From NCBI GenBank assembly GCA_964019165.1, contig OZ025276.1, forward strand, positions 3,347,840-3,411,839: 64,000 bases of DNA, written 5' to 3'. Position numbers and translations under genes: made by a program. Shown piece after piece: positions 1,729 through 41,553 of this stretch; positions within the stretch are counted from its first letter, which is position 1, and the number at the start of each line of letters is the position of its first letter. The DNA comes from Mastigias papua. Its lineage: Eukaryota > Cnidaria > Scyphozoa > Rhizostomeae > Mastigiidae. A model generated the notes under the pieces. That model ran no database searches. It was not told the DNA's origin and saw nothing but the letters and a program-made list of their open reading frames with translations.

Positions 1729-2691
1729 CTATGTGAGACAATCAAGTAACTTATTTAGAACTTTCTGGTGTTCTTCAGTCCATTGTATTTGTCTGTTCGA
1801 GGGTACTTGTGTAGATGACCGAGTTCTCTTTTGCTTTTTATCAAGAACTTCTTTGGTTTTAGGTAATGTTTCCTTTAACAAATCATAAATCGGCTTGGCT
1901 ACCCGTGAAAAATCAGGTATATATCTTCTGTAGTATCCCAATAAACCAACTAGATGACGTACATCACCAACAGGTTTTGGTGTCCAATCTTTCAGATGAA
2001 TAAGTGGCGTTATCCCTGCTGGATCAATGCGGTGCCCCTCCTCTGAGATTATGCGTCCCAGGTAGGTTACCTCTTTCTTGAATAGCTCACATTTCTTGGC
2101 TTTAAGTTGTATTCCTTTTTCTTTCAAGCAGCGTAGGACCTTCCTTACATGTTCGACATGATCTCCAAAGCTTTTCGAAAAAATGATAACATCATCCAGG
2201 TATGGAGAACAAAACTCATCCCTATAATCGGCAAGACAGTATTCCATGAATCGTTGCCACTCTGCTGGAGCATTCTTAAGACCCATGGGGAGGCGTACCC
2301 ATTCATAAAGACCCCATGGCATCACAACTGCTGTTAGTTGGCAGCTGGTAGGCTCTACAAATCCCTGATGGTAAGCCTTACCCTGATCCAGAGTAGCAAA
2401 CCATTTCTGGCCTGCCAAGCTATCAAGTGTATCTTGTATTTTTGGGATAGGATGTCTATCAGCTATGGTCTTTGAGTTCAGCTCTCTATAGTCAATGCAC
2501 AATCTCATTGACCCATCCTTTTTGTGCACCACCACACAAGGACTGCTATATGGTGAGCGTGACTTGGTTATAAAGCCCTGATTGAGCAGATCCTTGATAT
2601 ATGCTTTCAATTCAGGATACAAAGGTTGTAGAATTCCAACATAGTTCTTCTCAACAGGGCTGTCAGCTGACAAAGTGATCTTCATTTGCAA
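1729..2691 (-). pseudogene. Gypsy-1 reverse transcriptase
   Basis: About 320 codons of open frame. It contains the RT core in order: [62 protein letters not shown], the catalytic [10 protein letters not shown], and thumb/connection motifs ([26 protein letters not shown]). The YLDD box and order identify a Ty3/gypsy RT. It would have copied element RNA in virus-like particles. The apparent start is arbitrary because it is an internal part of a polyprotein. Confidence 0.9.
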
Positions 2692-3384
2692 TTATTCTTC
2701 ACAGCCAACATCACCTTCATTGGTACAAAAAGCTCCTCTCTCCTCTTTCAGCATACTCAATATAATCTCATTCTGCTCTGGCGATAAACTCCCTGGCACT
2801 TTCATGTCTGGAATCTTCTCAGATAAGTTGCTTTGAGGAACCCCTGAGCATGCCACATTCGACAGCAAACTATTATTCTCAAGAGTTGTGTCTCTACCAT
2901 GCTGTACCTTTTCCTTGCTACTGTCATCATTAAACTTGACTTGGAATGGTGTTGCTGATCTCACTTGGGTTAGCTTTCCTAGCAAGGTATGATTTGGTAA
3001 AATGACATCATGAGAACTGTTGTTTTTGCACATAACATTTATTCTGGCACCGTTTCCTCTCTTGACTGTGATTAAAGAGTCACACACTTCCAGCTCAGAT
3101 GGAAAACAACCATCACTTACCTTCTCAAACAGGACTGGTGTATTTCTTTCGATATAGCCCACATTTATACGACATGGGACATTTACTGTCTCATTTGACT
3201 TTACTCGAATATCTTTCTTTCCACTTTTTACTGTAGACAGAATAACCTCTTTTTCAGACTCTATCATATTTACTAGAGCATCTACTCTTGCTTCTGATAA
3301 TGTCCCAAACATGTGTAATAAACCTCATAATAAATCACTGTGTGAGGCTGGATTATTCATCACCAGTGTCTCAAGAACATTATA
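2692..3384 (-). pseudogene. Gypsy-1 protease-RT linker region
   Basis: The frame continuous with the protease tail resumes right at the LINE-1 boundary (about 3384) with a YNVLETL-like segment. It passes one TGA upstream of 3312 and runs to a TAA before the RT part. It is homologous to the same region of gypsy-2 (15266-15927): both share a repeat like ILPNHTLLGKL / SICTPLGHIEL. Such linkers between protease and RT are typical of this gypsy group. No catalytic motif lies in it. Confidence 0.7.
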
Positions 3385-3408
3385 ACATTACATTGATAGG
3401 TTATAGCA

Positions 3409-4433
3409 ATGGCGGTTGCAGCACGTGTTTTCGCTACTCTATTAAGTTTTGTCTTCATCTGTACGGAGTTGATGGATATCACACCCGTTGATTGTTTGAA
3501 AGTTGTGTGTAAATACAAAGTGTGTAATGTGCAGAACAGAAGAAAATTTCTTGAGGGAAAGGCATGGTTGAAAGCAAATTTATCGAAATCTGCGCGTAAG
3601 TGATCTCATCGACGAGTGGCCTATTCTGGTGAGCTTGACGGTATGGACCCTTTCTTCACATTGCTTCTTTGTGGTGATGTTGAACTAAACCCCGGCCCAA
3701 CAAATCAACAGAGGAATAATAAGTGCATAAAGAACGATGAAGCTTCGGACTTTCCCGAGATTCTCCTTCGTCTTGAAAAGAAAATTGAAAGCGGTCAAGA
3801 GAGCATTCTTGAAAATCAAAGTCGGATGTTGGCTCGGTTAACAACTATTGAAGATCAAAGTGAGAAGTTCAAGGTTGATATATCGGTCTTGAAAACCAAA
3901 CAGTCGGAGTTAGATTCGAAAATAAATGCTATGTCCAAGGAAATTAGCTTAAATTGTGATCATGGTAAGGACCTACAATTTGTGATCGATTGCCATGAGC
4001 ACTATTCTAGAAAAAATTCAATTCGAATTAGAGGAGTCGTGGAGGAGATGGGAGAAGAATTGAGAAGGTTACGTTAGAGACTGTAAAGAAAGAACTTGAT
4101 CTGGATTTGGTTCATTCCGAAATTGACATTGTACATCGTGTTGGGCGTCGTGATAGCAATCCAAGGTCGATTTTGGTCAAGTTTTTAAGCCATAAAACCA
4201 AAGAACGTGTTATGAGATGTAAAAAGAAGGCGGCGCACATAAAAATACATGAAGACCTGGCTCCTGGTATTAAACGTATTTTTAATGAGGTAAGTTCGAA
4301 TAGGAGATTTCTTAATGTCGACAGCGTATGGACCATTGATGGTAACATTACGTTTAGATATATTAATAACCCCCTCACCTTCGAGATCAGGTCCTACGCC
4401 GATTATCATGACTTAGTTAAGTCAAGGCAATAG
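3409..4433 (+). pseudogene. LINE-1 ORF1: signal-like leader, 2A motif, coiled-coil ORF1p
   Basis: Starts at ATG 3409 with a hydrophobic stretch (RVFATLLSFVFIC), then a basic segment. TGA at 3601-3603 replaces the CGA present in LINE-2 (36843-36845). In the same frame follows a 2A motif, GDVELNPGP (about 3673-3699), then a heptad-rich coiled coil and a segment HYSRKNSIRIRGV typical of LINE ORF1 RNA-binding domains. A 1-nt deletion near 4054 relative to LINE-2 shifts the frame. The C-terminal part (IVHRVGRRD, RSILVKFLSHKTKERVM) runs to the TAG at 4431-4433. ORF1 proteins are RNA chaperones packaging LINE RNA. Confidence 0.85.
3673..3699 (+). other. 2A-like ribosome-skipping motif (canonical)
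   Basis: Encodes GDVELNPGP, the exact D(V/I)ExNPG/P consensus, preceded by a hydrophobic run (DPFFTLLLC) as in viral 2A peptides. Ribosomes skip the Gly-Pro bond at such motifs, releasing the upstream leader and continuing with ORF1p. 2A sequences are known in several APE-type LINEs and picornaviruses. The upstream TGA at 3601 means this copy cannot use it from ATG 3409. Confidence 0.9.
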
Positions 4434-4450
4434 GATCTTGGCCGAGATGG
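4431..4450 (+). promoter_or_regulatory. In-frame UAG and downstream element between ORF1 and ORF2
   Basis: The ORF1 stop is CAA-TAG-GAT, and ORF2 continues in the same frame with no further stop. Bases 4440-4450 (GGCCGAGATGG) are the exact complement of 8265-8275 in the 3'UTR. Locally AUCUU (4435-4439) can pair with GAGAU (4444-4448) around a GGCC loop. The only nearby AUG (4447) is out of frame and stops after about 13 codons. Readthrough is inferred, not shown. Confidence 0.55.
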
Positions 4451-7400
4451 AAAAGCTAACATTGACCACCAAAACTCAACTAGTATAGCCAAAGAATTTT
4501 ATCGCAACCCAACACCAAACCTCTGCCTACCTATTCAAAATTACCTAAATCTTTCAGTGTGGAATTGTAATGGTTTTGGAAATTTGAAAGTTCAAACTGT
4601 AAGACAGGCAGGCTGTGAATTTTTTAACAGAATTTTAGAGCGCAATGATTTAATTTGCTTTTCTGAAACTTGGAGAGATCCTATTGACTTATCATTATTC
4701 AACTTAACTAATAATTTGTCTGAATTCCATGAGCCGGGTTTTAAGAATCATTTAGGGGGCAGACCTTCTGGGGGTCTGTCTCTCCTAGTCCGCAATTCAA
4801 TTCTTAAATATGTTTCAATTGTTCTTTCGGATAGTTACCATTTCTGGTGCAGACTTATCAAAAGTGGATTTGGTTGGGAACACGATTTATTTATCTGTTT
4901 TATTTATATTCCCCCAAGCAGTTCAACATTATTGAGAACAGGGCAAGCTCTGTCATTTGAGACTCTCCAATCAGAATGTGCTCATTATGAACGAAAAGGG
5001 TGGGTTCTATTATGCGGCGACTTCAATGCTAGAACGAATGACGTTAATGACTTTGTTGAAAATGACGAATTGGATGACTATTTGCCAATTGACGATAATT
5101 ACTTGCCAGATCAACATCTAGATAAAAGATTAAGTAAAGACACCTCTCCCATTAATGCTAACGGAACTGCTTTTATTGACTTTTGCAAGGCCGCTGGCTA
5201 CCGAATTATGAATGGCAGGGTTGATAAGGATAAGTCCAGCAATTTCACGTGCTTTACTAACAGGGGTAATAGTGTCGTTGATTATGCCCTATTATGCCAA
5301 GACACTTTTTCAATGGTCGACAAACTAAGTGTTGGTGAACTATGTGAATTTTCAGATCACAGCCCAATCGAGCTATCCATAAAAAGCTCGAACAATATAA
5401 TTAAATCGGAAGCGCAGCCTGATATATCAGTGGTAAATCTACCTACATACGACGACAATAAGCTTTTACAGAATTATAAAAAACAATACTATATCAATGG
5501 TGCCTCAACGTCAGACATTCTATCTTTGGCAATGGAAAGCAGCGAGATAACTAGTTTTCTAACTGATATATCAAATGAATTGGACAATAATGATTCATCC
5601 ATAGAGGAAGTTATTGAATCTTTGCGAACCAAAATGATAGATTTATCTGAAGCCCATTTAACTTCCAGAAATATTTTTCGTAAAGCCAAAAGTAAAACCA
5701 ATGTTAAGTTGATGAATACATGTCCTTGGTTTGATGTTGAGTGTCAGAAACGCAAACAGCTATTAAACAACAAAAGAAAAAAATATCAAGCTGCACTGAA
5801 GAATTCCTCCAATTTTGAAGATAATCAAGATATTAATCTTAAGTCAGCTTATTTTCAACAGCGAAGGGTTTATAAAAAACTAATAAGATACAAACATCAC
5901 AGTTTTCTTCAAAAAAAGAAAACAGAACTTTGGGATCTGAAAGGGGAAGCTCCAAAAGTTTTCTGGAAAATGTTGAAAAGTAGAAACGAAAAACACAGTC
6001 TAAACTTCTCTAATAACCAATTATCAAAGTATTTCAGTACCCTTCTAAACTCTGAAGATAGCAGGGACAGACATGAGAATAATCATGAGATCCGGGCTCC
6101 TTCTATTGACACCATGACGCAAAACCTAATTGACGACACTTTAAATCGTGATATTACTTTAGAGGAAGTCAAACTGATGGCTAAAAAGCTCAAAAATGGA
6201 AAAGCTTCTGGGCTTGATATGTTGTCTGCTGAGCTTCTAAAACATGCAAATGATAATTTCATGCTTGTGTTTACTAAACTATTTAACAAACTATTACAAT
6301 CTGGAAAAGTCCCTGAAGAGTGGTCTGCAGGAATAAGTGTAGTTCTTTTTAAAGGGGGTGATAAAGCAAATCTGAATAATTACAGGGGTATTACACTATT
6401 AAATATTTTTGGAAAGTTTTTCTTGGGTGTTTTGCTTGAAAGATTAAATATCGTCATTTCCCAATGTGAAATCCTTGAACAAAATCAGATAGGTTTTAGA
6501 CAAGGATATCAGACATCCGATCATATTTTCACTCTTCGTGCCCTTATTGAAAATTATTTCAGAAATAATAAAGGCCCCCTGTACGCATGCTTCGTGGATT
6601 TCAAAAAAGCCTTCGATTCCGTGGACCATGAGCTGCTGTTGCAGCAGCTTGTTACATATGGAATAAAGGGCAAATTTCTAAACGTCATCTCGTCACTTTA
6701 TGATCGAGATAAATCGTGTGTGAGGGGTAACGATAGTCTGACTGATATTTTCCCTTGTAACAGAGGAGTACAACAAGGGTGCCTTCTTAGTCCAGTCCTT
6801 TTTGCTTTATATTTAAATGATTTAAATAGCCACATTATGGAATCTTCTCAGGGGGTAATGGTGGATGATATACCTGTTCACTCACTTTTATATTCTGACG
6901 ACCTTGTTTTAATAGCAAAGGATAGAAAAGACCTTCAATCTCAACTGGATGCCTTAGATACGTTTTCACAATCTCTTAAAATGGAAGTGAACTTGGACAA
7001 AACTAAAGTCATGTTGATTCAAAAGCAGAAATCCCGTGCTAAATCTAAAAAGAACAAACCTTGGAAGGTAGGTGTTAAAGAACTTAAAGTCTGTGCCTCT
7101 TATAAATATTTAGGTGTAACGCTGAAATCTAATGGGTCCTTTTCAGACCATATCGAGAAATTAAAAGAGAAAGCTCACAAGTCCTACTTTTCCCTTATTT
7201 CTAAAAGCAAAGAATGGGGCGGTTTCCAGCCGCGTCTTTTTCTTTATTTGTTTGACCATACGATTGCTCCCATTTTGAATTATGCTTCAGAAATATGGGG
7301 TTTTGACAAATGGTCTAAGGTGGAAACGCTTCATCTTAAAGCCTGTAAATATGCTTTGGGTGTTCGATCGAGTACAACTACAGATGCTGTATATGCAGAA

Positions 7401-8124
7401 CTTGGAAGAGTAAGTCTCCAATGCGAAAGACATATAAATAATTTTAAATTTTTTCACTCGGCTAAACTCTTTAGATATACAACGTTATGCTAGCAAAGCT
7501 TTCCTTATGCTTGCAAAGGATGCAGATTGTGGCCATTATAACTGGGTATCTCTTGCCCGTGACCTTAGGATACGCTATGACATACAGCATTCAGATACTC
7601 GTTCAGCCATTAAAACTAAGGTCATTAAGCACTTTCAGTCAGAAGTGTTGAATAGATTAAATGAGCATATAACTGAAAATAGAAAACTAAATGTTTATGC
7701 CTCATTTAAAACAACTTATAAATTTGAATCCTATCTTGACTACTTACAGGACTTTACTGTTAGAAGCACATTAGCAAAACTTAGGGTCAGTGCTCATAAT
7801 CTCCACATTGAAACAGGTCGCTTTAGCAAAATCAAAACTCCTAGAGACAAACGATTTTGCCAATACTGCAAAACTCTGAATATTTTCACAGTTGAAGATG
7901 AAAGTCACTTTGTCTTAGCTTGCCCCCTTTTTCAAGAAGAACGTCAAAGACTTTTAGAGGACATCTATAGAACATTCCCAACAACTACCTCCCTTAATGA
8001 CTTCAATATGTATATGTGGCTAATGAGCCAAGAGGATTACAATGTAACCAAACGTTTGGCAGTCTTCTGCAAAACATCTTTGGATAGAAGATCAAACTTC
8101 TTATCCACTTATAGTAGAACATAA
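4434..8124 (+). pseudogene. LINE-1 ORF2: APE endonuclease - reverse transcriptase
   Basis: Open from the UAG to 7493, then one extra base near 7446 (absent in LINE-2) shifts the frame and the rest is read at 7507-8124. The APE endonuclease starts at about 4545 (WNCNG, SETW, GDFNAR, SDHSPI); the RT follows with SGLDMLSAELL, FVDFKKAFDSVDHELL, GVQQGCLLSPVLFALYLNDL and YSDD (6891-6902). The C-terminus has a Cys-His motif, CQYC-x10-H-x5-C. The first in-frame ATG lies at 5208, after most endonuclease catalytic residues, so it cannot be the true start. Makes the target-nicking and cDNA-priming protein. Confidence 0.9.
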
Positions 8125-8313
8125 TTAACGATCATTATATACCTTACAACTATATTTAGTTTTTGTGAACATTAGATTACTTTCTTTTCTTACTGTTGTG
8201 TAGCTTTAAACATAGAGTATATTAGTATTATACATTTAGCTGTGTAATTGTATGCAGTTAAGGGCCATCTCGGCCTATATACTTGAGTTACAAAAAAACA
8301 AAAACAAAAAAAA
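8125..8313 (+). other. LINE-1 3'UTR and A-rich tail
   Basis: Near-identical to 41369-41553 of LINE-2. Contains GGCCATCTCGGCC (8263-8275), able to form a hairpin (stem GGCC/GGCC, loop AUCUC) or to pair with 4440-4450. Ends in an impure poly-A (8291-8313). Confidence 0.85.
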
Positions 8314-8894: not shown

Positions 8895-10264
8895 GCATCG
8901 ATAAGCAAAATGGTCACTGGCTCCACATTTCCAACAATGAGTACAATTTCTTCCTTCTTGGATACACATATCACAGTCTTTGGGGGATTCCTGTCTTGGT
9001 CCCCTTCCATTTGTCCTACCGCTTTGGGGATGTTCTATCCCTCTGTTTTGTCATCTCCTGCCTTAGGGTTGCAACATCTGCTTTTAATGCTTGCATTTCC
9101 TTTATTAACTGCTCAGTGGAGTCCACTGGAATTGGGGGGTCATCCCTTTTGGTGATCTTTCTCTCAACTTGTGCGATTTTGGCCCTTGCTTTTGTACCCA
9201 AACCAAGCTTTGAATTTCTTTCTGTCTCCTCCGTTACAGCTATATTCAATTCTGCAATGAGATCTTCATCTTTTACATGTGTGGTTTTCAACAGGGGTCG
9301 TATTCTTGACCTCAAAGTAGTACTGATGAGGCCTGTTTCAATGGCATGGAGGAACAAGGACTGGCACTGGGTATCAACATACTTGAGCTTACTGTGTTCT
9401 TCATGAGAGGCAACGATTAATGTCTCATGTAAATTCAGAGCTCATAAAAGAAATTCTCTTGGTTCCTCTGTTGGGAACTGGACAAGATTTACCAGGCTTG
9501 TGTACAGTTCAGCAGCGCTCTTTTTGTGGTAATGTGCATGTATGATCTTCATTACACTCGGCAAACCCGAATCCCTCATTGCCTCAAGATAATCTCGCAA
9601 CTGCATCCCTGGGGCAATAGCACGAATGATTGCATCCACAATCTCTCTTTCTTCATACCTTGTGTTTATTGCACTCTGAATTTGGCGATTCAGACTTATA
9701 TAAGATAGTTGATCTTTCTGTCCTTGCCCCCCTATTGTCTCTCCTATTCGTAGGTCTCGCTTCAGAATTGTCTTTAACATGTCAAATTCGTTGTTTTCCC
9801 TGATGTCTAACTGGGCTTTTGGTTTTTGCACCCTTCCAATCCTTACTGAGTCTGCTTCCCGGCTTAAATCAATCATCTGCTGGGCCCTGGAAAATTGCAC
9901 GTTCCCCTTCACCCTGATTGCTTCTGAGTGCTGCCTCAACATGGATGTCTTCTGGGGTAGACCCATCCAAACTATCGGCATCCCCCTGGTCATTGTCAAT
10001 GGGCGGTCCTCTCTCCACAAACTCTTGTTGCACATCAACAAGGAATGTCCTTTGTTCTCGATGGTCTTGCTTCTCAACTTCCGCCTCAACGTGCAAAAGT
10101 ATGAGTTTGACTAGCGACAAACGTGATTTATTGACAAGGTCTGGATATGCGATGTTTACCTTTCTACACACTTCCAACAATTTTCCTTTTGTCGAGCTAG
10201 CTAGGGTTCCTTGCAAAGTGAGTTCTAATTCCTCAATATCAACCTCTACATTCTGATGTGCCAT
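8895..10264 (-). pseudogene. Gypsy-1 Gag with CCHC zinc knuckle
   Basis: Starts at ATG 10262-10264 (MAHQNVEVDIEELELTL). A frame change near 9890 leads into SRAQQMIDLSREADSVRIGR and the capsid-like part (LKTILKRDLRIGE, IVDAIIRAIAPGMQLRDYLE, AAELYTSLVNLVQFPTEEPREF). TGA at 9442-9444 interrupts it, probably an ancestral CGA (Arg). It resumes with LFLHAIETGLISTTLRSRIRP and a coiled coil, and ends in CWKCGASDHFAYRC (8895-8936), a C-x2-C-x4-H-x4-C knuckle. Homologous to gypsy-2 Gag (16748-17587). Forms the particle and binds RNA. Confidence 0.8.
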
Positions 10265-36620: not shown

Positions 36621-36644
36621 CAATATACCAAGGTTATAGCCAAG

Positions 36645-37678
36645 ATGGAGGTGATAGCACATGTTTTCATTGCTCTCGTACTTGTTGTTACTGGAATCGT
36701 GGAATGTTTGGACGGGAAGTCCGAAGATCGGTTAGATATGAACTTGGTGTATAAATATAGGATTTCAAATGGTGTTTGGCGAAAAAGAGCTCTTGAAGGT
36801 AGAACATGGAGTAAAGCAAATGTGTCAAAATCGGCACGTAAGCGATCTCGTCGAAGAGTGGCCTATTCTAGTGGACTTAGAGGTATGGATCCATTCTACA
36901 CATTGCTGCTTAGTGGAGACGTGGAAGTAAACCCCAGCCCAACAAATCAACAGAGGAATAATAAATCCGCAAAGACTGATGAAACTCAAGATTTTTCTGA
37001 GATTCTCATGAGACTTGAAAATAAAATTGAATGCGGGCAAGAGTGTAGTCTTGAAAATCAAAATAAAATGCTGGCTCGGTTGTCTACGATTGAAGAAAAA
37101 AGTGAGAGATTTAAAAGTAATATTTCGGATCTGAAAAGAAAACAGTCGGATTTAGAATCAAAAGTAAACGCTATGTCTAATGATATTAGCTTAAATTTTG
37201 ATAATGGAAAGGATTTGCAATTTTTGATTGATCGACATGAACAATATTCGAGGAAAAAGTCACTTAGAATTAGAGGAGTCTTGGAGGAGATGGGTGAAGA
37301 TATCGAAAAGCTAACGTTGGACACTTTAAAGAAAGAACTTGATTTGGATGTGGACCGGTCTGAAATTGAAAGTGTGCATCGTGTAGGGCGTCGTGATAAT
37401 AGCAAACCAAGGTCGATTTTAGTCAAATTCTTAAGTCACAAGTCCAAGGAACTTGTCATGAGGTGCAAAAAGAAGGCGACGAATATAAAAATAAATGAAG
37501 ATCTGGCTCCTGGTATTAAACGAATTTTTAATGAGGTAAGTTCGAATAGAAGATTTCTAACTGTCGACAGCGTATGGACCATTGATGGTAAATTAAGTTT
37601 AGATATATTAATAACCCCTGCACCTTCGAGATCAGGTCCTACGCCGATTATCGTGACTTAGTTAATTCAAGGCAATAG
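36645..37678 (+). pseudogene. LINE-2 ORF1: signal-like leader, mutated 2A, ORF1p
   Basis: Intact from ATG 36645 through leader, 2A region and coiled coil. The N-terminus has a strong hydrophobic core (HVFIALVLVVTGIVE), then a basic KRSRRR segment, then DVEVNPSP (36918-36941), where Ser replaces the Gly needed for 2A. The coiled coil and RSILVKFLSHKSKELVM follow. A 1-nt deletion near 37590 relative to LINE-1 throws the frame; without it the frame ends at the conserved TAG 37676-37678. Shows that leader and ORF1p were one frame. Confidence 0.88.
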
Positions 37679-37695
37679 GATCTTGGCCGAGATGG
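37676..37695 (+). promoter_or_regulatory. In-frame UAG and downstream element in LINE-2
   Basis: Same CAA-TAG-GAT context as LINE-1; GGCCGAGATGG at 37685-37695 is the exact complement of 41510-41520 in the 3'UTR. Confidence 0.55.
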
Positions 37696-40600
37696 AAAAG
37701 CTAACATTGAACACCAAAACTCAACTAGTATAGCCAAAGACTTTTATCGCAACCCAACACCAAACCTCTGCCTACCTATTCAAAATTACCTAAATCTTTC
37801 AGTGTGGACTTTTAATGGTTTTGGAAATTCGAAAGTTCAAACTTTAAGACAGGCAGGCTGTGAATTTTTTAACAGACTTTTAGAGCGCAATGATTTAATT
37901 TGCTTTTCTGACACTTGGAGAGATCCTATTGACTTATCATTATTCACCTTAGCTAATAATTTTTCTGAATTTCACGAGCCGGGTTTTAAGAATCATTTAG
38001 GGGGCAGACCTTCTGGGGGTCTGTCTCTCCTAGTCCGCAATTCACTTCTTAAATATGTTTCACTTGTTCTTTCGGATAGTTACCATTTCTGGTGCAGACT
38101 TATCAAAAATGGATTTGGTTGGGAACAAGATTTATTTATCTGTTTTATTTATATTCCCCCAAGCAGTTCAACATTATTGAGAACAGGGCAAGCTCTGTCA
38201 TTTGAGACTCTCCAATCAGAATGTGCTCATTATGAACGAAAAGGGTGGGTTCTATTATGTGGCGATTTCAATGCTAGAACGAATGACGTTAATGACTTTG
38301 TTGAAAATGACGAATTGGATGACTATTTGCCAATTGACGATATTTACTTGCCAGATCAACATCTAGATAAAAGATTAAGTAAAGACACCTCTCCCATTAA
38401 TGCCAACGGAACTGCTTTTATTGAATTTTGCAAGGCCGCTGGCTACCGACTTATGAATGGCAGGGTTGATAAGGATAATTCCAGCAATTTCACATGCTTT
38501 ACTAACAGGGGTAATAGTGTCATTGATTATGCCCTATTACGCCAAGAAAATTTTTCAATGGTCGACAAACTAAGTGTTGGTGAAATATGTGAATTTTCAG
38601 ATCACAGCCCAATCGAGCTATCCATAAAAAGCTCGAACAATATACTTAAATCGGAAGCGCAGCCTGATATATCAGTGGTAAATCTACCTACATATGACGA
38701 CAATAAGCTTTTACAGAATTATAAAAAACAATACTATATCAATGGTGCCTCAACATCAGAAATTCTATCTTTGGCAATGGAAAGCAGCGAGATAACTAAT
38801 TTTCTAACTGATATATCAAATGAATTGGACAATAATGATTCATCCATAGAGGAAGGTATTGAATCTTTGCGAACCAAAATGATAGATTTATCTGAAGCCC
38901 ATTTAACTTCCAGAAATATTTTTTGTAAAGCCAAAAATAAAAACACTGTTAAGTTGATGAATAAATGTCCTTGGTTTGGTGCTGAGTGTTGGAAACACAA
39001 ACAGCTATTAAACAACAAAAGAAAAAATATCAAGCTGCACTGAAGAATTCCTCCAATTTTGAAGATAATCAAGATATTAATCTTAAGTCAGCTTATTGTC
39101 AACAGTGAAGGGTTTATAAAAAACTAATAAGATACAAACGTCACAGTTTTCTTCAACAAAAGAAAACGGAACTTTGGGATCTGAAAGGGGAAGCTCCAAA
39201 GGTTTTCTGGAAAATGTTGAAAAGTAGAAACGAAAAACACAGTCTAAACGTCTCTAATAACCAAGTATCAAATTATTTCAGTACCCTTCTAAACTCTAAA
39301 GATAGCAGGGACAGACATGAGAATAATCATGAGATCCGGGCCCCTTCTATTGACACCATGACGCAAAACCTAATTGACGAAACTTTAAATCGTGATATTA
39401 CTTTAGAGGAAGTCAAACTGATGGCTAAAAAGCTCAAAAATTGGAAAAGCTTCTGGGCTTGATATGTTGTCTGCTGAGCTTCTAAAACATGCAAATGATA
39501 AGTTCATGCTTGTGTTTACTAAACTATTTAACAAACTATTACAATCTGGACAATTCCCTGAAGAATGGTCTGTAGGAATAATTGTAGTTCTTTTTAAAGG
39601 GGGTGATAAAGCAGATCTGAATAATTACAGGGGTATTACACTATTAAGTATTTTTGGAAAGTTTTTCTTGGGTGTTTTGCTTGAAAGATTAAATATCGTC
39701 ATTTCCCAATGTGAAATCCTTGAACAAAATCAGATAGGTTTTAGACAAGGATATCAGACATCCGATCATATTTTCACTCTTCGTGCCCTTATTGAAAATT
39801 ATTTCAGAAATAATAAAGGCCCCCTGTACGCATGCTTCGTGGATTTCAAAAAAGCCTTCGATTCCGTGGACCATGAGCTGCTATTGCAGCAGCTTGTTAC
39901 ATATGGAATAAAGGGCAAATTTCTAAACGTCATCTCGTCACTTTATGATCGAGATAAATCGTGTGTGAGGGGTAACGATAGTCTGACTGATATTTTCCCT
40001 TGTAACAGAGGAGTACAACAAGGGTGCCTTCTTAGTCCAGTCCTTTTTGCTTTATATTTAAATGATTTAAATAGCCACATTATGGAATCTTCTCAGGGGG
40101 TAATGGTGGATGATATACCTGTTCACTCACTTTTATATTCTGACGACCTTGTTTTAATAGCAAAGGATAGAAAAGACCTTCAATCTCAACTGGATGCCTT
40201 AGATACGTTTTCACAATCTCTTAAAATGGAAGTGAACTTGGACAAAACTAAAGTCATGTTGATTCAAAAGCAGAAATCCCGTGCTAAATCTAAAAAGAAC
40301 AAACCTTGGAAGTTAGGTGATAAAGAACTTAAAGTCTGTGCCTCTTATAAATATTTAGGTGTAACGCTGAAATCTAATGGGTCCTTTTCAGACCATATCG
40401 AGAAATTAAAAGAGAAAGCTCACAAGTCCTACTTTTCCCTTATTTCTAAAAGCAAAGAATGGGGCGGTTTCCAGCCGCGTCTTTTTCTTTATTTGTTTGA
40501 CCATACGATTGCTCCCATTTTGAATTATGCTTCAGAAATATGGGGTTTTGACGAATGGTCTAAGTTGGAAACGCTTCATCTTAAAGCCTGTAAATATGCT

Positions 40601-41368
40601 TTGGGTGTTTGATCGAGTACAACTACAGATGCTGTATACGCAGAACTTGGAAGAGTAAGTCTCCAATGCCAAAGACATATAAATATTTTAAATTTTTTCA
40701 CTCGGCTAAACTCTTTAGATATACAACGTTATGCTAGCAAAGCTTTCCTTATGCTTGCAAAGGATGCAGATTGTGGCCATTATAACTGGGTATCTCTTGC
40801 CCGTGACCTTAGGATACGCTATGACATACAGCATTCAGATACTCGTTCAGCCATTAAAACTAAGGTCATTAAGCACTTTCAGTCAGAAGTATTGAATAGA
40901 TTAAATGAGCATATAACTGAGAATAGAAAACTAAATGTTTATGCCTCATTTAAAACAACTTATAAATTTGAAGCCTATCTTGACTACATACAGGACTTTA
41001 CTGTTAGAAGCACAGTAGCAAAACTTAGGGTCAGTGCTCATAACCTCCTAATTGAAACAGGTCGCTTTAGCAAAATCAAAACTCCTAGAGACAAACGCTT
41101 TTGCCAATACTGCAAAACTCTGAATATTTTCACAGTTGAAGATGACATTCACTTTATCTTAGCTTGCCCCCTTTTTCAAAAGGAACGTCAAAGACTTTTA
41201 GAGGACATCTATAGAACATTCCCAACAACTACCTCCCTTAATGACTTCAATATGTATATGTGGCTAATGAGCCAAGAGGATTACAATGTAACCAAACGTT
41301 TGGCAGTCTTCTGCAAAACATCTTTGGATAGAAGATCAAACTTCTTATCCAATTATAGTAGAACATAA
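37679..41368 (+). pseudogene. LINE-2 ORF2: APE endonuclease - reverse transcriptase
   Basis: No stop and no ATG between the UAG and the endonuclease start (about 37790). Endonuclease motifs as in LINE-1 (SDTW with D for the usual E neighbour, GDFNAR, SDHSPI). Broken by a 1-nt deletion in an A run (about 39026), TGA 39106-39108 (CGA at 5862-5864 in LINE-1), a 1-nt insertion (about 39440) and TGA 40610-40612 (CGA at 7365-7367). RT 39464-40612 with YSDD; C-terminus 40751-41368 with the CQYC zinc-like motif. Confidence 0.9.
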
Positions 41369-41553
41369 TTAACGATCATTATATAACTTACAACTATATT
41401 TAGTTTTTTGTGAACATTAGATTACGTTCTTTTGGTACTGTTGTGTAGCTTTAAACATAGAGTATATTAGTATTATACACTTAGCTGTGTAATTGTATGC
41501 AGTTAAGGGCCATCTCGGCCTACATACTTGAATTTCAAAAAAAAAAAAAAAAA
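41369..41553 (+). other. LINE-2 3'UTR and poly-A
   Basis: Near-identical to the LINE-1 3'UTR; contains CCATCTCGGCC (41510-41520) and a run of A's to about 41553. Confidence 0.85.

Follow-up and report, generated by a model that had tools for sequence, protein, structure and literature searches.

In a 64,000-nucleotide stretch of the Mastigias papua genome (contig OZ025276.1, positions 3,347,840 to 3,411,839; here called the window), we examined two copies of a long interspersed nuclear element (LINE) in which a second open reading frame (ORF2) follows the UAG stop codon of the first (ORF1). We consider it probable that ORF2 is decoded from behind this UAG and that an 11-nt element six bases past the stop pairs with a hairpin in the 3' untranslated region (UTR), 3.8 kb away, promoting readthrough. 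The element would pair with both the loop and the arms of the predicted 3' UTR hairpin. Long-range pairing of the two elements is well supported by sequence comparison; by analogy with known systems, we infer that it may promote readthrough and act as a switch.

LINE copy 1 (3408..8313, plus strand) consists of ORF1, the UAG (4431..4433, plus strand; context CAA UAG G), ORF2, the 3' UTR, and an A-rich tail. Copy 2 (36642..41553, plus strand) has the same arrangement, with its UAG at 37676..37678 (plus strand), and the frames of both copies are damaged. In copy 1, the ORF2 frame behind the UAG (4434..7493, plus strand) is open for 1019 codons and then reaches a stop after a frame break. The UAG-proximal element, GGCCGAGATGG, occupies 4440..4450 in copy 1 and 37685..37695 in copy 2, and its reverse complement, the distal element CCATCTCGGCC, occupies 8265..8275 and 41510..41520, all on the plus strand and with a spacing of 3825 bases in both copies. 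The initial annotation had reported this complementarity, and all four 11-mers are found where it placed them; its count of seven bases after the UAG corresponds to six intervening bases, the element beginning at the seventh.

These four sites are the only matches to the 11-mer in the window with at most one mismatch (chance mean, 0.16). In 20,000 simulated pairs (first-order Markov; the 60 nt past the stop against a 180-nt 3' stretch), a perfect run of at least 11 occurred in 0.48%, somewhat more often than the roughly 1 in 1000 first estimated. For one copy, taken alone, the single 11-nt match is suggestive only.

Complementarity of the two elements across LINE families

We searched the window's own genome (347 Mb, G000) for further copies; the match counts are lower bounds. 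At least 22 places were found by the DNA around the stop, at least 71 matches by the start of ORF2, and at least 40 by the ORF2 of one family (family B, below), and the LINE itself occurs at dozens of genomic sites. A stop-site pattern gave 45 hits, 36 of which were assigned to the LINE and all read in sequence; the other 9, with one mismatch each, were judged unrelated by the matched string (3 of them were read) and dropped. A 37th stop site, L063, which has lost its UAG, was added by hand at an approximate place. A 3'-end pattern gave 57 hits, not all of which were read. When the ends were matched by position and strand, 28 of the 37 stop sites had a 3' end within 12 kb, and the other 9 were dropped. 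One 3' end (L089, CCATCATGGCC) had no known 5' partner and was left out of the count, and three candidate family members (L091 to L093, GGCCATGATGG) were rejected because LINE sequence was not found around the motif.

Of the 28 elements, 26 pair at every one of the 11 positions, 20 of them perfectly and 6 with one G-U pair. The perfect combinations are GGCCGAG/CTCGGCC (14 elements), GGCCGGG/CCCGGCC (5 elements), and GGCCAGG/CCTGGCC (1 element); those with a wobble are GGCCGGG/CTCGGCC (4 elements, one G.U), GGCCGAG/CTCGGCT (1 element, G.U), and GGCTGGG/CCCGGCC (1 element, U.G, with the UAG lost). The mismatching combination of GGCCGAG with CATCCC occurs in none of the 28. The initial annotation had pointed to loss of complementarity in diverged copies as the sign that would speak against its proposal; the diverged copies instead show retention, with 11 pairs in those 26 elements, one compensatory change fixed in a family with several copies, and 9 contiguous pairs in a relative from another assembly (L073, below).

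There are four multi-copy lineages, W (that of the window), L040, A, and B, and the last three are 75 to 83% identical to W over the first 281 residues from the start of the endonuclease. In family B, both sides of one pair have changed (A-U to G-C; GGCCGGGATGG with CCATCCCGGCC) in all 5 copies that have an intact UAG and both ends, a fixed double change that we read as compensatory and as maintaining the pairing. In family A, the 5' side alone has changed (GGCCGGGATGG with CCATCTCGGCC), and a G.U pair is kept (4 of 4). A tree of 13 ORF2 proteins, with families matched to its rows by their element ends, groups A with the A-U family L040 (82/82), within a group of 100/99, and leaves B outside the group that contains W (81/81). 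The A-to-G change on the 5' side therefore probably happened twice, and each time the new base is one that still pairs with U.

Read as codons, the element is GGC CGR GAT GG. GGC and GAT are constant across W, L040, A, and B; CGA goes with U in the 3' loop, and CGG goes with C (B) or, as a wobble, with U (A). Among the last 50 codons of ORF1, 35 specify the same amino acid in the four families, and the third base is common in just 8 of the 35 (0 of 7 four-fold sites), so synonymous sites are close to free. We count the kept third bases of GGC and GAT in favor of the proposed pairing, as they suggest constraint at the RNA level. The same observations bear on a chance match between two separately constrained elements, in which the GRDG protein sequence and a local hairpin would hold the 5' element, and recognition of the 3' hairpin by the reverse transcriptase would hold the 3' element. 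Most families do conserve GRDG at the protein level, the 3' hairpin and the final ~60 nt are independently conserved, and one 11-nt run has a ~0.5% chance. However, third bases at synonymous sites of the element either stay the same or vary together with the 3' loop, the changing 3' base lies in the loop of the hairpin and not in its stem, and every family with both ends has the same register, as does L073. We regard such a coincidence as improbable.

For our covariation test, identical joined rows were collapsed into one, leaving 19 rows; L073, which is not among the 28, was included, and C10:416086 and C12:4200089, whose 3' ends were absent from the set, were left out. Double-sided changes occur at two pairs (6 cells), and 97.6% of cells are paired. 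Of five measures, three (the number of such cells, the covariation score, and the percentage paired) were reached by none of 500 shuffles, and in a control, partners slid by 1 to 3 columns pair in 18 to 49% of cells. Two B-like copies (B'), C13 and C18, read GGCCAGGATGG and CATCCTGGCC, a second double change, from G-C to A-U. Relative to B, the two have 12 changes in common in the 5' piece and 11 in the 3' piece and so form a branch. In C13, ORF2 pieces run part way to the 3' end; in C18, the ends are linked by place and strand only. The second double change is suggestive of compensation.

Several observations weigh against pairing maintained by selection. Both sites changed in B' are CpG in B, and these copies are CpG-decayed, so decay could mimic the change: in the 5' piece, 13 of 16 (C13) and 10 of 14 (C18) B CpGs are changed, and in the 3' piece, 2 of 5 (C13) and 3 of 6 (C18). 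The C18 pair also spans 10.7 kb. Without the two B' copies, the covariation comes down to one double change, matched by 137 of 500 shuffles; with them, 133 of 500 shuffles reach two double-changed pairs and 438 of 500 reach the number of pair types. Two elements among the 28, both in old, damaged copies, do not pair throughout: the C13 B' copy has GGCCAGG with GCATCCTGGCC and one terminal mismatch, and the decayed copy L037 loses three pairs. Finally, one of two control LINE families without a UAG fusion also has an 11-nt match, of low complexity (U-rich/A-rich). These control families are distant (28 to 29% amino acid identity), and their ORF2 comes after a spacer with its own Met, 17 residues ahead of the WNIQG motif.

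The full relative L073 lies on JAAEPJ010000017.1, in a prokaryote collection, labelled bacterial isolate 'Cli_8'. Its ORF2 is 70% identical to that of the W family, and four-fold sites are 45% identical. The stop region reads TAG GAATTT GGCCGAGAT AGG, that is, the UAG, 6 nt, and the element. GGCCGAGAT is matched by ATCTCGGCC, and CCATCTCGGCC stands in the same conserved 3' end; there are 9 contiguous pairs at equal spacing, then a mismatch, then one more pair. The contig with this full LINE relative was deposited within a bacterial genome and is likely eukaryotic contamination of that assembly; its labels and the type of element may point to a sponge as its source. Stop-site pattern matches in IMG/VR (L074 to L076) had no complementary 11-mer in the available stretch and were taken as chance. 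Exact-pattern scans gave 0 matches or L074 to L076 only, viral-contig scans with two ORF2 alignments gave no relative, and the two end pieces had no match in Rfam.

The UAG and the expression of ORF2

The LINE is an APE-type non-long terminal repeat (non-LTR) retrotransposon, with an apurinic/apyrimidinic (AP) endonuclease and a reverse transcriptase, an A-rich tail, and ATAGCC flanks on both sides as a target site duplication; it is putatively of the CR1/L2 group. ORF2 is in frame with ORF1 behind a single UAG, and the Pfam domains Exo_endo_phos (AP endonuclease) and RVT_1 (reverse transcriptase) are found in its frame. The stop is TAG in 23 of the 24 copies or pieces examined (TGG in L036). 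In all 15 of the W and L040 copies with enough open codons, the first in-frame AUG is codon 259 or 262, and in nine of these ORF2 is open for 1229 to 1246 codons; family A has no AUG in the first 200 ORF2 codons. The WNxNG endonuclease motif is at codons 42 to 46 (28 in L073), ahead of the first AUG in W, L040, A, B, and L073. Because the first AUG of this in-frame ORF2 follows the first endonuclease motif, UAG readthrough is the likely route by which ORF2 protein would be made. Less favorable to this route are earlier in-frame AUGs at codon 114 in B and codon 53 in L073, and at codons 42 (L035) and 89 (L037) in two decayed short frames.

We think it very unlikely that ORF2 is made without readthrough, whether by reinitiation after ORF1, from a non-AUG start, or by A-to-I editing of the UAG to a tryptophan codon. 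Reinitiation is described as known for SART1 and proposed for LINE-1 in excerpts of PMC5972666, and UAG editing as known elsewhere in excerpts of PMC3542737. Yet a start at the first in-frame AUG always loses the first endonuclease motif, and the GTG that precedes the endonuclease is replaced by GTA in family A and by GTT in L073. An AUG inside the element is out of frame, opening 13 codons in W, 2 in B, and more in L040, and is absent in L073; reinitiation at this AUG was rejected on both grounds.

The pairing could also be real and serve another role, bringing the two ends of the RNA together for template choice, packaging, or target-primed reverse transcription, while the UAG context alone would account for readthrough. 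Its 3' partner does lie within the conserved 3' end. The stop context is CAA UAG in all four families of the genome, and the available text of PMC3542737 gives two adenines before the stop, which favor readthrough, and structure from ~8 nt behind it as usual in viral readthrough. However, in every family the 5' partner keeps a constant distance of 6 nt from the UAG, even with the TTT UAG of L073, and 6 nt is near the ~8 nt where, in that source, readthrough structures usually begin. A function confined to joining the ends thus seems unlikely to us.

Predicted structures, a possible switch, and insertion sites

Folded alone (17 nt), the 3' element forms GGCC-AUCUC-GGCC (AUCCC in B) in six lineages. 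In copy 1, this predicted hairpin is at 8263..8275 (plus strand), with a nearly invariant stem and a loop (8267-8271) complementary to GAGAU. Its probability in a 61-nt context is 0.97 to 1.0 in five lineages and 0.39 to 0.47 in family A. Behind the UAG, a small 5' hairpin with a CC-GAGAU-GG tip is predicted in L028, L033, and L040, and in L073 with another lower stem; in copy 1, the GAGAU loop is at 4444-4448 (plus strand). Both varying pairs fall within both loops. The duplex is predicted at -20.8 to -23.8 kcal/mol (L073, -16.6); the two local hairpins have -1.6 to -7.1 and about -8, so that the duplex is more stable than both of these summed. Two results fit less well with paired hairpin loops: the 3' hairpin of family A is not the favored fold in a longer stretch, and the 5' hairpin is weak or different in A and B, with no shared fold (RNAalifold, 0.0).

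The initial annotation had described local hairpins at both sites with stem and loop swapped. The 3' hairpin GGCC-AUCUC-GGCC holds up and is conserved. The 5' AUCU...AGAU hairpin is present in the window's subfamily only, the six bases ahead of GGCC being GATTTT, GGTTTT, GGTGTT, or GAATTT in other families; we therefore rejected it as a general feature, and the swap is not general either. A second hairpin, AGCUG...CAGUU (window 8234-8260), lies directly 5' of the distal element and is in the RNAalifold consensus of six lineages.

In the mechanism that we propose, the 5-nt loops GAGAU and AUCUC would kiss first and then open into 11 bp. This pairing would lower termination at the UAG, as pairing between the proximal and distal readthrough elements (PRTE and DRTE) does in tombusviruses, and ORF2 protein would follow. 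The last ~60 nt of the LINE, including the 3' hairpin, are conserved, and because the 3' partner lies in this presumed template end for the LINE reverse transcriptase, pairing and reverse transcription would be mutually exclusive. A kissing-loop RNA switch, in which the 3' hairpin for reverse transcription also licenses UAG readthrough and which evolved independently of the plant-virus version, is a more tentative extension that we hold to be possible but somewhat doubtful.

The AUG of ORF1 lies ~0 to 3 nt past the 5' junction (window 36642-36647 and 3408-3411), so the LINE is almost without a 5' UTR of its own. ORF1 (window 3643-3702 and 36880-36945) has a hydrophobic start and then a 2A-like motif, GDVELNPGP in copy 1 and a degenerate GDVEVNPSP in copy 2; StopGo may thus be used by the same RNA alongside readthrough. 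Copy 1 is flanked by GGTTATAGC and ATAGCC, and both window copies (36635-36641 and 3402-3407) are at GGTTATAGC sites and not in an array. Among the L023 to L042 flanks, the 3' flank is ATAGCC in 11 of the 13 copies with a printed 3' flank (ATAACC in L028), and 5' junctions read CCAAGG[C/T]TATAGCC, with the element next. The ATAGCC flank falls at one phase of a tandem repeat, with a unit of 107 bp by Tandem Repeats Finder (TRF) in L046 (338-701). Judged from these junctions, the LINE looks like one with sequence-specific insertion into a satellite. Copy 1 itself seems to be inserted within a Gypsy-like LTR element on the minus strand (window 1729-3312 and 9442-10089), with a reverse transcriptase-like ORF on one side and a possible gag-like ORF on the other, named by ORF appearance.

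Relation to viral and retrotransposon systems

Excerpts of PMC3234231 and PMC5893793 describe a tombusvirus stop-proximal stem-loop element that pairs with the terminal loop of a 3' UTR hairpin ~3.5 kb away and is needed for efficient readthrough; the pairing excludes the fold for minus-strand synthesis, and in turnip crinkle virus (TCV) the 3' hairpin serves as core promoter. For CIRV (below), according to PMC3234231, a dual-luciferase reporter failed to reveal readthrough dependent on this pairing in vivo. The LINE is like the PRTE-DRTE system of Tombusviridae (carnation Italian ringspot virus [CIRV], tomato bushy stunt virus [TBSV], TCV, and tobacco necrosis virus D [TNV-D]), as far as these excerpts describe it, in that its UAG precedes the polymerase part and its post-stop element is the complement of the loop of a hairpin close to the 3' end. 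We also liken the LINE to tombusviruses in that their 3' partner is tied to a replication signal. In contrast to these plus-strand plant RNA viruses, it is a genomic LINE with an AP endonuclease and a reverse transcriptase. Its pairing, as predicted from sequence, is 11 bp (6 nt in CIRV), and its small 5' hairpin would offer a loop, whereas the PRTE is a bulge in a long stem-loop. The LINE is not a member of the virus group; it has the plan of the tombusvirus signal, with a reverse transcriptase replacing the viral polymerase.

As in murine leukemia virus gag-pol, the reverse transcriptase of the LINE would be reached by UAG readthrough with an RNA structure behind the stop; the excerpts of PMC5009743 describe a local pseudoknot there, whereas the LINE partner is 3.8 kb away in the 3' UTR. 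Like SART1 and LINE-1, it is a non-LTR element with two ORFs. According to excerpts of PMC5972666, a downstream RNA structure plays a part in SART1. Termination-reinitiation in SART1 and LINE-1 uses the ORF2 AUG, whereas the ORF2 of this LINE lacks an AUG before the endonuclease domain. The mechanisms named for non-LTR elements in the excerpts of PMC5009743 and PMC5972666 are reinitiation or frameshifting. The conserved 3' end with a hairpin is like the 3' stem-loops of stringent-type LINEs (UnaL2 and SART1), and the A-rich tail is as in SART1 (excerpts of PMC3747384). Unlike in UnaL2 and SART1, the 3' loop has a complement in the stop region as well, and recognition by the reverse transcriptase is putative here. 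A search of open-licence PMC papers returned no title or abstract with UAG readthrough of a LINE ORF1 or a comparable long-range partner in a LINE.

The pairing prediction concerns a short, exactly defined sequence, and compensatory mutations could test it directly. Two open questions are how LINEs set a low level of ORF2 expression and how LINE proteins recognize the RNA that encodes them, and a readthrough signal that depends on the 3' end would, if true, bear on both for this lineage. It would also extend a control principle of plant RNA viruses to retrotransposons. Should the switch be real, the RNA would make reverse transcriptase only with an intact 3' end and would stop once the enzyme takes the hairpin, giving the LINE a built-in full-length check and a device for cis-preference.

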